Origin: Thaumarchaeota archaeon CSP1-1
GTDB taxonomy: Archaea; Thermoproteota; Nitrososphaeria; Nitrososphaerales; Nitrosopumilaceae
Direction: 5' to 3'
DNA: 33,663 bases
Assembly: GCA_001443365.1 (NCBI GenBank)
Contig: LDXL01000006.1
Coordinates: 53,724 to 87,386, forward strand
The translations under genes and the position numbers were made by a program. Shown here one piece after another: positions 27,155-32,716 of the stretch; the stretch's first letter is position 1, and every line of letters begins with the position of its first letter. A model generated the notes under the pieces. The model ran no database searches, was not told where the DNA came from, and saw only the letters and a list, made by a program, of their open reading frames with translations.

Positions 27155-28129
27155 TTAGCTTAGTGAATTTATGGCGGCATCAAACACAATTGATGGTTGT
27201 GGACCAGCAATTTTTTTAATATCGCCCTCTGGTCCAATTATGAAGAAATATGGGGTTCCTACTACGCCAAGTGAAGCGCCAACCTCGGTGTTATGAGATA
27301 CCCTGTCAGCATATATTCCAGAATCTAAACATTCGTTAAACATTTCGGCATCAAGTTCAAGGTCTGTTGCAAATTGTTTTAGTGCATCCATGTTTGCCCA
27401 ACCATCCTGGATTCCCGCTTGGTTATTGTATAAAGTAGAATGGTACTCGATAAATTTTCCTTGATCATCTGCACAATATGTTGCTTGAGCAGCAGCGATT
27501 GAATCATCACCAAGCCATGCAGAATCTAAAAAGTAAAGCTTTGCAATACCTTTCGTTATGTAATTGGAAGTGATTTTTGATTTTTCGTTTTGGAACCAGC
27601 CTTTACATTTTGGACACTGATAATCTCCAAATTCAATAATTGTTATAGGCGCATCTTCATCACCTTCAACTGGTGCAGCCATAGATAGATCAACACCTCC
27701 AATTGTAAATGATTCTTCTTCCATTGTTTCTTCTGGTAGTCCTTGCTCTTCACCCATCGATAATCCCTCAGATAGTTCTATTATCTTCTCATTAGTTGCG
27801 TTTTCCGTTGTTTCATCTTCTATTGTTTCGTTTTCTATTGTTTCGTCTTCTATTGTTTCATCTTCTTCATCATCAAGAACGATGGATCCCCAACCTGCAT
27901 CAGATAATTTCATAGAAGTGGAAGATTTAACGCATGTAGCAGCCCCGTTTGTTGAGCGAATCATCAAGACCAAACCGGATTTACACACTACATCATCTGC
28001 AGCAACACCAGATGCCATCTGTTGGCGAGGAGACATGATGTCTTGTGCATTTACACTTAACATCGATGGAGATAAGAATAATCCTAGAGCTATAATAGCT
28101 ACAAAAGCGGTATTGGTCACAGAATTCAT
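27155..28129 (-). CDS. Secreted DsbA-like thioredoxin-fold protein with an extra N-terminal Cys/Trp module
   Basis: A signal peptide (residues 1-28; AFVAIIALGLFLSPSMLSVNAQ) is followed by a small module with C49, C66, V67, K68 and a terminal GW (79-80). Next comes an acidic linker built from ETIED-like repeats (91-115), then a thioredoxin-fold domain (about 148-324) of the DsbA/DSBA-oxidoreductase_4 family. It has active-site CPKC at 172-175 and the cis-proline loop GTPYFF (P293). The family forms or isomerises disulfides in secreted proteins. TATA-like ttaagtatc lies about 26 nt before the ATG, so the message is probably leaderless. The N-terminal module reappears at the end of the surface protein at 30188-31423. 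Confidence 0.88.
   Translation of the reverse strand: MNSVTNTAFVAIIALGLFLSPSMLSVNAQDIMSPRQQMASGVAADDVVCKSGLVLMIRSTNGAATCVKSSTSMKLSDAGWGSIVLDDEEDETIEDETIENETIEDETTENATNEKIIELSEGLSMGEEQGLPEETMEEESFTIGGVDLSMAAPVEGDEDAPITIIEFGDYQCPKCKGWFQNEKSKITSNYITKGIAKLYFLDSAWLGDDSIAAAQATYCADDQGKFIEYHSTLYNNQAGIQDGWANMDALKQFATDLELDAEMFNECLDSGIYADRVSHNTEVGASLGVVGTPYFFIIGPEGDIKKIAGPQPSIVFDAAINSLS
27809..27868 (-). repeat. Four tandem 15-nt units in the DsbA-like gene
   Basis: Plus-strand units close to tgtttcatcttctat repeat four times with one to three changes each. They encode the acidic, Thr-rich linker (E-T-I-E-D/N units) between the N-terminal module and the thioredoxin domain. Linkers of this type vary in copy number between relatives. 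Confidence 0.7.
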
Positions 28130-29570: not shown

Positions 29571-30191
29571 TTGCAAAATCTTGCAATTTTGATTTCTGGA
29601 AGAGGGAGTAATATGGAGGCCATTTTGAAGACCATAAAAATGAAAAAAATTCCAATAAAACCTAAAGTAGTAATATCTAACAAACCGGATGCAAAAGGCC
29701 TTAAAATTGCACAAAGGCTTGGAGTCAATACTGAAGTAGTCGATAGCTCAGGCTTTAATGGAGATAGATGGGAGTATGACAAAAAGATTGTATCTATTCT
29801 TTCAAAATATGGGGTTACACCAAAAAATGGACTAGTTTGTCTTGCAGGGTTTATGAGAATAATTAGTCCACAGTTTATTAGAAAATATAAGAATCACATA
29901 ATGAATATTCATCCTGCTCTGTTACCATCTTTTTCTGGATTGAATGCTCAGAAACAAGCTGTCAAGTATGGAGCAAAATATTCAGGATGTACGGTGCATT
30001 TTGTTGACGAAAGAGTTGATACTGGACCAGTAATTTTACAGGCGGTTGTAAAGGTAAATGATAATGACACAGAAGAAACTCTTTCAAAGAAAATTCTAAT
30101 AAAAGAACATCAAATGTATCCAAAAGCTGTAAAATTATTTGCAGAAAAAAAGATTAGAATTTCAGGTAGACGCACTATAATTAAAGACTAG
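29571..30191 (+). CDS. purN: Phosphoribosylglycinamide formyltransferase
   Basis: PurN transfers the formyl group of 10-formyl-tetrahydrofolate to GAR in purine synthesis. The phosphate-binding GRGSN (10-14) and the catalytic residues N112 and H114 (MNIHPALLPSF) and D150 (ERVDTGPVI) match the N106/H108/D144 set of the E. coli enzyme. Length 206 is normal. The start is TTG; a stop lies in frame just upstream, so no earlier start is possible. The stop overlaps that of the convergent gene by 4 nt. folD, which makes folate one-carbon units, starts about 3 kb downstream. Confidence 0.95.
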   Translation: MQNLAILISGRGSNMEAILKTIKMKKIPIKPKVVISNKPDAKGLKIAQRLGVNTEVVDSSGFNGDRWEYDKKIVSILSKYGVTPKNGLVCLAGFMRIISPQFIRKYKNHIMNIHPALLPSFSGLNAQKQAVKYGAKYSGCTVHFVDERVDTGPVILQAVVKVNDNDTEETLSKKILIKEHQMYPKAVKLFAEKKIRISGRRTIIKD

Positions 30192-31423
30192 GCTCTAACC
30201 CAACCTCTTTCTAGTAGCTTTTCTGCAGTCTTAGGTTTGACGCATGCTGGAGACCCATCATATTTGAAAATTTTCACAAAACCTTCTTTGCATACAATCT
30301 CAACAAGTTGTTTAGAACGCAAGTTTTCTTCATTAAGAGGAAGATTTACAGAATTTTTTGGCATATTAACCATATCAGGAGAAAATGTATCTTGATATAC
30401 AACTAAGAAGGCACCCAGTCCTCTTTGGGTATATTCAAATTCTATTTTCTCATCTACATCAATTCTTTGACCATTAACGGTTCTTGGAATTTCTATTACG
30501 GTATAAAAAATTCCAGTATTATCTCCTGTTTCTCTTAGTGCGGAGGGTTGTGGATTAAACTCATTTTGAACACCGCCAGTTGGTCCCAATGTTGTTCTTA
30601 TATTTTCTGATTCAAATTGGATTAGATCTAAAGTATAGGATTCGGCTCTATCAGAATCTAAATTCAAATTTGAATCATAAAGTAATATTGTTAGAGGATG
30701 GCCAATTCGTACAGTTTTTGAAGTGGCGATTTTTTCTGAACTTGAACCAAGCGATGGAGGTGAATTCAAAACACTAAATGTTGCGGATGCGGTAACTTTT
30801 CTAGAGTTGCCTGATGCATCGGTTGGTTCAGTATATTCAACTAAAAGAACATCACCTTGTAATATACAGTGTCTTGAAGATGCACTAGAGTCATCAAATC
30901 TAATTTGGGCTTCACTTGAAACTTGGCATTTAGAACTTTCTGGACCATCCGTATTTTTTATCGAAACACCAAATTCGAAAATTCCAGATGTGGGGGATGT
31001 TTCTGTGATTGGACCAAATTGTTTTATCTGAGATTTTTCTGAAGGCAAATCAGCAATAGGTTCTGAATCAAGTTGTCCAGAATTAGATGATTTTCCTCCT
31101 GCATATCCTAAAACAACTGACTCACCTCTCATAATTGAAATCTTAACAGGACCTACACCAGATTCTCCAAAAATGTCTTGTGCAATTTGGTCTATACCAG
31201 TTGGAGAGGTGTTAAAATCAGGATCAAAAATTCTAATGCTGATTTTGAGTTCATTTGATTCGACAGGAATTGGATATGTGCTTTTGTCTAGTCCGATCGT
31301 TGCAGAATGTCCTTTTATTTCTGCATCCCCATTAACAATAGGGGTAGATACAAAGAGTGTTAGTGATAATAAAATCACTATGAAAACGCTAGAAAAACTA
31401 TTGATTTTTCCTAACACAGCCAA
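30188..31423 (-). CDS. Secreted Ig-like surface protein with a C-terminal Cys/Trp module
   Basis: An N-terminal signal segment (FSSVFIVILLSLTLFVSTPIVNGD) is followed by beta-sandwich repeats. Each carries a 'DPDFN'/'DSNLN' Asp-Asn motif and a TGIF- or SGIF-type strand (SGIFEFGVSI, TGIFYTVIEI), the pattern of thaumarchaeal and haloarchaeal surface-layer-like domains. The last 34 residues form C378...C394-VKPKT-KL-RGW, which resembles the module in the DsbA-like protein. The 411-residue protein is probably cell-surface or periplasmic. The start is TTG at 31423, about 20 nt after TATA-like ttttataatt. It is divergent from a second protein of the same fold. Confidence 0.75.
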   Translation of the reverse strand: MAVLGKINSFSSVFIVILLSLTLFVSTPIVNGDAEIKGHSATIGLDKSTYPIPVESNELKISIRIFDPDFNTSPTGIDQIAQDIFGESGVGPVKISIMRGESVVLGYAGGKSSNSGQLDSEPIADLPSEKSQIKQFGPITETSPTSGIFEFGVSIKNTDGPESSKCQVSSEAQIRFDDSSASSRHCILQGDVLLVEYTEPTDASGNSRKVTASATFSVLNSPPSLGSSSEKIATSKTVRIGHPLTILLYDSNLNLDSDRAESYTLDLIQFESENIRTTLGPTGGVQNEFNPQPSALRETGDNTGIFYTVIEIPRTVNGQRIDVDEKIEFEYTQRGLGAFLVVYQDTFSPDMVNMPKNSVNLPLNEENLRSKQLVEIVCKEGFVKIFKYDGSPACVKPKTAEKLLERGWVRA

Positions 31424-31437
31424 AAACCTTTGGGATA

Positions 31438-31448
31438 ATTATAAAACA
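31438..31448 (-). promoter_or_regulatory. Putative TATA box of the minus-strand surface protein
   Basis: The minus strand reads gttttataatt about 20 nt before the TTG start at 31423. It is close to the archaeal consensus. Confidence 0.4.
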
Positions 31449-31525
31449 TTACTCTTGTTTTGTTCCTGAGTCTATTATACTGGATATAATTCAATGAATA
31501 AATCAGCCTACTTTCCTATGTAAGA

Positions 31526-32716
31526 ATGAATTTGATAGAACTTGTACTAATTCTTGCTCCATTATTGGTTTTTAATGCATACGCTGAGGATTTACCAGAT
31601 TATTACAACCCATATGCACCTATTTTCACCGATAAAGAGGTGTATACATGGACAGATAAGATTGGTATAACTATAGTTGCGCCAAGTTGGGATGCTAACA
31701 AATATGGTATTGATTCAATTGGAACTCAAGAAGGACATTTGATTAAAATTTCATCCGCTGATATTACATTAGAGCCATACAAATTAACCGAAACTGAAAC
31801 AAGTAGTGGGATATTTACTGGTGAAGTGACTCTTACAGGGTTTTTACATGATGTAGATGGAGATGGTAGACCAGATACAAATCCTATGACTAGTGGTAGC
31901 GGACCAACTAATGGTTTTTTGGAAACTCAACGAGATGGAGGAATTACAATTTCGTTTGAGTTTGCTGATGGAGTAGTCTTAACTAAATCTGTAAAAGTTA
32001 GTTGGAATGTTGGAGAGATAAGATTCATGAAGTCTGATTATTCAATAGATGAAACAGCAATAATACAAGTAATAGATCTTGACATGAATCTCAATCCAGA
32101 AGGAATTGATCAAATTGAAGTGAATATTTCATCAGATTCTGATGCTGCAGGAATTCTTGTTAAGGCTATAGAAACATCTGAGAATTCAGGATTGTTTGAA
32201 GCATCTATTTCATTTACCCAAAGCCAACCTTCTAGCGGCAATAGATTATTTGCAATGCCAGATGATTCACTACAAGCAAAATATGATGACCACACACTTC
32301 CTTCACCTTATAGTATATCAGACAATTTAGAAATTTCAAGTGAGTCAAAATTTGTTTCAAATATTCCACCAATTGAGAGAATTTCAATAGTGAATAGTTT
32401 TATCGCCGATAGTTCTGGAAATTTAATTAGCGCTCCTACGAGGAATGAACAACTTCAAATTGCTGGAACTGTTCATAATAACCAAAATTACGAACAGAAT
32501 TTTGTTTTCATAATACAGATAAAAGAATCTGAAGGAGCTGTTGTATCATTATCCTGGATTGAAGGACAAATGTCTGCAAATCAAAATTTTGAAGTATCAC
32601 AATCATGGAATCCCGTAAAAGCTGGGAACTATACAGTTGAAACATTTGTTTGGACTTCGTTAAGTGAGTCCATTCCACTTTCACCTATTCTGAGGCAATC
32701 ATACTTTATTCAATAA
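31526..32716 (+). CDS. Secreted Ig-like surface protein
   Basis: The signal peptide (LIELVLILAPLLVFNAYAED, residues about 3-22) is followed by at least two beta-sandwich units with the same markers as the divergent neighbour: SGIFTGEVTL with DVDGDGRPDTN, and DLDMNLNPEGIDQIEVNI with SGLFEASISF. A calcium-binding-like DGDGRPD lies near residue 110. The C-terminal 100 residues look like a fibronectin-type or CARDB domain (LQIAGTVHNNQNYEQNFVF, AGNYTVETFVW). There is no C-terminal Cys/Trp module and no membrane anchor. TATA-like gatataat lies about 40 nt before the ATG. Surface role inferred. Confidence 0.75.
   Translation: MNLIELVLILAPLLVFNAYAEDLPDYYNPYAPIFTDKEVYTWTDKIGITIVAPSWDANKYGIDSIGTQEGHLIKISSADITLEPYKLTETETSSGIFTGEVTLTGFLHDVDGDGRPDTNPMTSGSGPTNGFLETQRDGGITISFEFADGVVLTKSVKVSWNVGEIRFMKSDYSIDETAIIQVIDLDMNLNPEGIDQIEVNISSDSDAAGILVKAIETSENSGLFEASISFTQSQPSSGNRLFAMPDDSLQAKYDDHTLPSPYSISDNLEISSESKFVSNIPPIERISIVNSFIADSSGNLISAPTRNEQLQIAGTVHNNQNYEQNFVFIIQIKESEGAVVSLSWIEGQMSANQNFEVSQSWNPVKAGNYTVETFVWTSLSESIPLSPILRQSYFIQ

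Follow-up and report, generated by a model that had tools for sequence, protein, structure and literature searches.

In a marine ammonia-oxidising archaeon, two neighbouring secreted proteins share a small domain with two cysteines, WING-49, a member of a family already catalogued by NCBI and functionally unexplained. Both are encoded in the window analysed here, a stretch of DNA of 33,663 nucleotides. On balance, we favour the reading that WING-49 is a small basic domain, probably closed by a disulfide, by which the Nitrosopumilaceae keep secreted proteins on their surface with no need for a membrane anchor. These archaea rank among the most abundant in the ocean. To our knowledge, the S-layer is the only wall described for them, and apart from membrane tails and CTERM signals, little is known of how secreted enzymes are retained rather than lost to seawater. 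Should WING-49 be such a soluble retention tag, a profile search would list a set of surface enzymes for each genome and predict their location.

The first carrier is a DsbA-like secreted protein of 324 amino acids (27155-28129, minus strand), consisting of a signal peptide, WING-49, an acidic linker and a thioredoxin/DsbA domain. WING-49 copy 1 (27887-28030, minus strand) spans residues 34-81, includes C49 and C66, and follows the pattern P..Q...G...C...CV...GW. From its sequence, the linker between WING-49 and the DsbA domain (27692-27880, minus strand) is acidic and rich in Glu, Asp and Thr; counted together with the module, everything between the signal peptide and the DsbA domain has a net charge of -23. 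The Thioredoxin_4/DSBA domain (27233-27673, minus strand) matches both profiles (Thioredoxin_4, 76.6 bits, cut-off 23.2; DSBA, 43.5 bits, cut-off 25.6) and is related to BdbD/DsbA proteins with solved structures. Its C-P-K-C motif, known from the sequence, marks the protein as a putative thiol oxidase.

The second carrier is a secreted protein of 411 amino acids (30188-31423, minus strand) with a signal peptide, two S-layer-protein Ig-like domains, a disordered linker and a C-terminal WING-49. An earlier, sequence-only reading of this DNA had taken it for a substrate-like surface protein, a label better replaced by this domain composition. Its body (30416-31282, minus strand) is homologous to residues 1060-1343 of NmSLP, the S-layer protein of N. 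maritimus (Nmar_1547, PDB 8c8k; E 1e-51 to 8c8k_A). A linker formed by residues 343-371 (30311-30397, minus strand), modelled with very low confidence (pLDDT < 50), leads to WING-49 copy 2 (30197-30301, minus strand; residues 375-409, with C378 and C394). Across a gap of 102 bp (31424-31525) lies a divergently transcribed neighbour of 396 amino acids (31526-32716, plus strand), composed of a signal peptide and the C-terminal S-layer domains. Its homology covers NmSLP residues 1367-1727 (E 2.3e-93 to 8c8k_A), including the last S-layer Ig-like domain, and the protein is without WING-49. In full-length S-layer proteins further Ig-like domains follow the region shared with the 411-residue protein, whereas the latter has WING-49 there. 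As the two homologies span residues 1060-1343 and 1367-1727, WING-49 occupies the position where the membrane-proximal S-layer domains would come next; these are encoded by the adjacent gene.

With 411 and 396 amino acids, the two S-layer-related proteins of the window are not full-length, multi-domain lattice subunits of ~1700 residues. Frames of ~1600-1800 amino acids occur in many other genomes, and in the window's own genome a fragment of another S-layer gene lies at the edge of a contig. Orthologues of the 411-residue protein, each with a C-terminal WING-49, are present in four genomes (G001, G003, G024 and G438). The divergent pair is also seen at L177 and L178, in two other genomes of the genus, and is not seen within the fetched flanks of L179, L180 and L108. 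In the window, S-layer domains appear cut up and recombined with a WING-49 tag.

Both Cys/Trp stretches are copies of one domain, NCBIfam NF058652.1 (WING-49), a catalogue entry of the kind 'domain' whose curated cut-off of 22 bits both exceed by a wide margin. Copy 1 matches positions 1-48 of the 49-position profile (67.1 bits, E 1.1e-18) and copy 2 positions 13-48 only (60.9 bits, E 9.2e-17). In a direct BLASTP comparison of the DsbA-like and the 411-residue protein, the module region aligns with E 3e-6; Pfam has no model at the module in either protein. The shared cysteine layout that the sequence-only reading had proposed, C49/C66 in one protein and C378/C394 in the other, is borne out, and the extent it had assigned in the DsbA-like protein, 27887-27986, turns out to be the second half of the module only. 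The N-terminal part of WING-49, P-[LR]-[KQ]-Q-x3-G-[IV], is present in copy 1 (PRQQMASGV) and not recognisable in copy 2. We found no paper naming WING-49 among open-licence PMC papers. Compared to the catalogue entry, we add architecture rules, the exchange with anchors and the links to the S-layer. As far as we searched, nothing seems to have been published on the exchange with CTERM or membrane anchors, on the spread of the module over unrelated enzymes or on the S-layer fusions.

For a broader view, 185 distinct WING-49 domains were collected from 165 loci. All 185 contain exactly two Cys, both window copies included, and each is the only copy in its open frame, never arranged in tandem. 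In an alignment of 148 domains, three columns are invariant (Q4, C16 and C33) and four nearly so (K/R at position 25, in 97%, and L42, G46 and W47); conservation is biased upward in these columns, as the rows were filtered (148 of 167 qualifying domains, those shorter than 44 residues or with E above 1e-6 being left out). The AlphaFold model of copy 1, built with the 148 sequences, reaches a pLDDT of 92.2 and consists of a helix (2-6), two strands (20-24 and 31-35) and a second helix (36-44), and WING-49 is confidently predicted to be a helix-hairpin-helix. In the full-length model of the 411-residue protein, copy 2 (block pLDDT 75-94) lies behind the low-confidence linker and adopts the same predicted strand-strand-helix layout as copy 1, in agreement with the idea of a common module. 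The invariance of the two Cys, together with their extracytoplasmic setting, suggests that they are joined in a disulfide. A Foldseek search of the PDB with the WING-49 model returned no match at E <= 0.001, a VIA structure comparison no convincing PDB match (best Z 2.6), and a query of PDB chain sequences by the module alignment a best E of 0.37. Weak structural resemblance was seen to follistatin/EGF hairpins (TMq about 0.4-0.46). The absence of a fold match in the PDB does not make the fold of WING-49 new.

The position of WING-49 within its carriers is variable: among the 185 copies, 53 are C-terminal, 60 lie near the N-terminus, 65 are internal and 7 are cut off. C-terminal copies are followed by a tail of 1-11 residues (median 4), and N-terminal copies begin a median of 12 residues behind the hydrophobic segment. 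Such an N-terminal hydrophobic segment is present in 175 of the 181 carriers with an intact start. These many extracytoplasmic carriers support the earlier proposal of a common module outside the cell, and the domains attached to it, at either end or around it, are unrelated enzymes and other domains. In the 135 of 185 carriers scanned with Pfam, we counted 16 dienelactone-hydrolase-like (DLH), 6 MG2, 5 glucose/sorbosone dehydrogenase (GSDH), 4 Kazal, 4 cupredoxin and 3 DsbA/thioredoxin matches. Because the carriers comprise hydrolases, dehydrogenases, cupredoxins, Kazal domains and DsbA, no single chemistry fits WING-49. In the window's own genome, WING-49 is carried by the DsbA-like and S-layer-like proteins, by one DLH-like and one GSDH-like enzyme, and by four further proteins. 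In six carriers (L072, L086, L106, L119, L129 and L139) a Kazal-like stretch, CTLEYxPVCG, directly follows WING-49; some of them match a Kazal model, and L119 also matches DUF4377. Apart from WING-49, three small carriers (L025, L063 and L113) contain hardly anything but a signal peptide and an acidic repeat-like stretch.

A profile search had been named beforehand as one check that could refute a shared module. It returned matches far above chance, with 8 copies in the window's genome (1.36 Mb, 10 contigs) and none in any of 14 control genomes. In a set of 61 genomes comprising this genome and its relatives, 30 have WING-49, namely 29 of the 37 genomes of family f1, evidently the Nitrosopumilaceae, and one genome of another family; the highest copy number is 28 (G030). 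In a phylum sample of 398 genomes, 59 have WING-49, 58 of them among the 63 f1 genomes listed and 1 among the 335 others, the latter being a weak match in another family. All 29 named WING-49 loci of the genome scan are labelled thaumarchaeal, one of them as Nitrososphaeraceae on a 3-kb contig.

Membrane anchors are nearly absent from WING-49 carriers. A C-terminal membrane segment, scored by a hydropathy window and not by a trained predictor, is found in 1 of 178 uncut carriers, compared to 52 of 193 secreted-like ORFs of the same loci (Fisher p 1.5e-15), and in 1 of 165 carriers against 43 of 164 secreted-like ORFs after length matching. Module and tail are not strictly exclusive, as L057 has both WING-49 and a PEFP membrane tail. 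The two window proteins lack a C-terminal hydrophobic segment and do not match TIGR04296 (PEFG-CTERM). This archaeal C-terminal anchor combines a motif, a membrane segment and a basic tail and is confined to the C-terminus, whereas WING-49 is predicted to be a soluble folded domain without membrane segment that occurs at either end or internally. One paper on marine ammonia oxidisers treats PEFG-CTERM proteins as membrane-anchored surface proteins, in passages that do not mention the WING-49 module (PMC6593220).

Among homologous proteins, WING-49 and membrane anchors replace one another. Small Ig-like bodies end in WING-49 at L055, L040, L079 and L064, and in a membrane segment with KKRK-like tails in the homologues L050, L134 and L142; likewise, L097 ends in WING-49 and its homologue L154 in a PEFG tail. 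Relatives of three carriers (GSDH, DsbA and DLH) were sought in 46 f1 genomes each, and for GSDH and DsbA 30 loci each were classified out of longer match lists, the GSDH loci coming from 30 genomes. The GSDH proteins end in WING-49 at 9 loci, in a PEFG or membrane tail at 6 (one in a broken frame) and in a WW/I-rich repeat at 6; the remainder are 2 DsbA fusions, 1 diverged WING-like tail that the NCBIfam WING-49 model does not recognise, 5 bare paralogues and 1 cut locus. In a GSDH tree of 28 rows, leaving out L260 (broken frame) and L261 (cut by a contig end), the end module changes 6 to 7 times. Well-supported (starred) branches force two separate membrane-tail groups and are compatible with a single origin of the WING-49 state.

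The 30 DsbA loci include 4 with WING-49, 2 fusions and 20 with an N-terminal segment only. In other f1 genomes, PEFG-CTERM fills the corresponding role in GSDH and DsbA homologues, with TIGR04296 matches at L269 (GSDH) and L289 (DsbA). The WING-less DsbA orthologue L286 has CFI-box-CTERM (NF041770) in its C-terminal part, which differs from WING-49 in sequence and stands alongside a hydrophobic C-terminal membrane segment. In the DsbA orthologues L287 and L288, the place that WING-49 takes in others, behind the signal peptide, is held by a Lys-rich stretch (26 and 28 Lys in 71 residues). Among DLH proteins, WING-49 is present in all 15 full or nearly full proteins found. The near-absence of membrane anchors and these orthologue swaps support the anchoring or docking role put forward in the sequence-only reading.

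Two side observations concern the GSDH relatives. In the six orthologues with a WW/I-rich end (L263, L264, L265, L267, L268 and L271), a C-terminal repeat of the approximate form IPxWV...WW..G.I.D..F..G..YLI...II takes the place of WING-49; it was matched neither by Pfam (scanned for L265 and L268) nor by NCBIfam (scanned for L265, L268 and L271). In L266 (610-3573) and L270 (793-3561), from genomes G034 and G017, a cyclophilin-type prolyl isomerase, a GSDH-like propeller and a DsbA domain form one secreted chain, and these two genomes have one weak or no WING-49 match.

WING-49 and its carriers differ in charge. The net charge per 100 amino acids is +2.8 for WING-49 and -7.0 for the carrier bodies, and the module is the more basic part in 152 of 157 carriers; since 31% of the domains are neutral or negative overall, the charge argument is weak by itself. 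NmSLP is reported to be highly negatively charged, with Lys (1.7%) and Arg (2.2%) both reduced, and its last Ig-like domain is speculated by the authors to anchor the S-layer (PMC11153153). The S-layer homologue in L143 is less extreme than NmSLP (K+R 7.8%, net -4.1 per 100). Taken together, the charge contrast and the Lys-rich stretch that replaces WING-49 in two DsbA orthologues fit an acidic target, a fit that is suggestive only.

Further ties to the S-layer come from domain architecture. In genome G012, a single protein joins the first S-layer domains of the window's 396-residue neighbour (67% identical over 274 residues) to GSDH and WING-49, and some carriers have S-layer-like domains on either side of WING-49. 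S-layer homology is found in 13 of 185 carriers and 5 of 192 other secreted ORFs, a difference that is not significant (p 0.054). A general rule tying WING-49 to the last S-layer domain (D10) was considered and dropped, the D10 profile matching 1 of 185 carriers and 4 of 193 background ORFs. An S-layer can do without WING-49, as several f1 genomes that lack the module (G007, G014, G017 and G028) have an S-layer protein homologue.

We postulate the following route to surface retention. The signal peptide would export the carrier, and the two Cys would be oxidised by DsbA-like enzymes, one of which is itself a WING-49 carrier, thus locking the helix-hairpin-helix. The folded WING-49 may then bind a common acidic envelope component non-covalently, most likely the negatively charged S-layer or its glycans. 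As recognition would be located in WING-49 itself, it would work at the N-terminus, at the C-terminus or between domains. In the course of evolution, the place of the module could be taken by a fusion or by a tail, either a membrane tail or a PEFG-CTERM sorting tail. If this is true, the 48-residue module offers a ready probe for its receptor.

The main rival is a dockerin-like assembly, in which WING-49 would bind one dedicated receptor protein and gather enzymes into a surface complex, with no bulk envelope target. It would account for diverse enzymes with one WING-49 each and for the fusion of GSDH and DsbA, carriers in several genomes, with a cyclophilin in the WING-poor G017 and G034; Q4, C16 and C33, invariant in the 148 filtered domains, and several near-invariant positions are compatible with a specific interface. 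However, no gene recurs beside WING-49 genes across many different carriers as a receptor candidate, the conserved N-terminal part is missing from copy 2, and the Lys-rich replacement in L287 and L288 argues for a charge-based target, so we regard such an assembly as unlikely.

Still less probable, in our view, is a sorting or folding signal, which would be read by the machinery for export, maturation or quality control and would not serve as the final anchor. The internal location of 65 of the 185 copies, where a terminal signal is not expected to work, speaks against it, as does the prediction of a folded domain that has neither the membrane segment nor the basic tail seen in known CTERM signals, even though many copies closely follow the signal peptide (at a median of 12 residues) or end the protein (median tail of 4 residues) and WING-49 swaps with PEFG-CTERM sorting tails. 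The module might also bind a ligand (ion, metal or glycan) and serve the activity of the carrier, not its location, for which one could cite position 25, almost always basic (K/R in 97% of 148 domains), and the carriers L025, L063 and L113 that are little more than an acidic stretch and WING-49. We judge this highly improbable: there is no conserved metal-ligand set beyond the two Cys, the carriers share no common chemistry, and an orthologue exchange with membrane tails would make no obvious sense.

Surface retention, the reading preferred here, has functional counterparts in bacteria. GW modules and SLH domains are mobile, non-covalent wall-binding modules that retain unrelated secreted proteins via a wall polymer. 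WING-49 is likened to them by function only: it is a single copy per protein, about 48 residues long, two-cysteine and archaeal, and wall-polymer binding would apply to it by analogy. More tentatively, and with considerable doubt, we propose that the S-layer itself is the docking scaffold. The ammonium-concentrating, negatively charged lattice of the Nitrosopumilaceae would then have up to dozens of enzymes and redox or folding factors hung on it via a single basic module closed by a disulfide, and the lattice would be tailored by short proteins derived from the S-layer, among them the divergent pair of the window.

Copy number of WING-49 shows a weak positive correlation with genome size (Spearman 0.46, p 0.01, 30 f1 genomes), which we do not use as evidence. 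Spread by viruses was considered and rejected, with none of 16 pattern matches in viral contigs confirmed as a WING-49 relative, and so was spread by phages, where the only match was at chance level (E 0.5, two records of one phage). Among the best 20 of 1301 plasmid matches to the DsbA-like protein, all begin no earlier than query residue 116 and so leave out the module. Dense clusters of at least about ten WING-49 genes per ~50 kb were observed in G030:C91 (L161-L163) and G011:C1 (~525-575 kb, L075-L077), where they are interleaved with proteins ending in PEFP/PEFG-type membrane tails.
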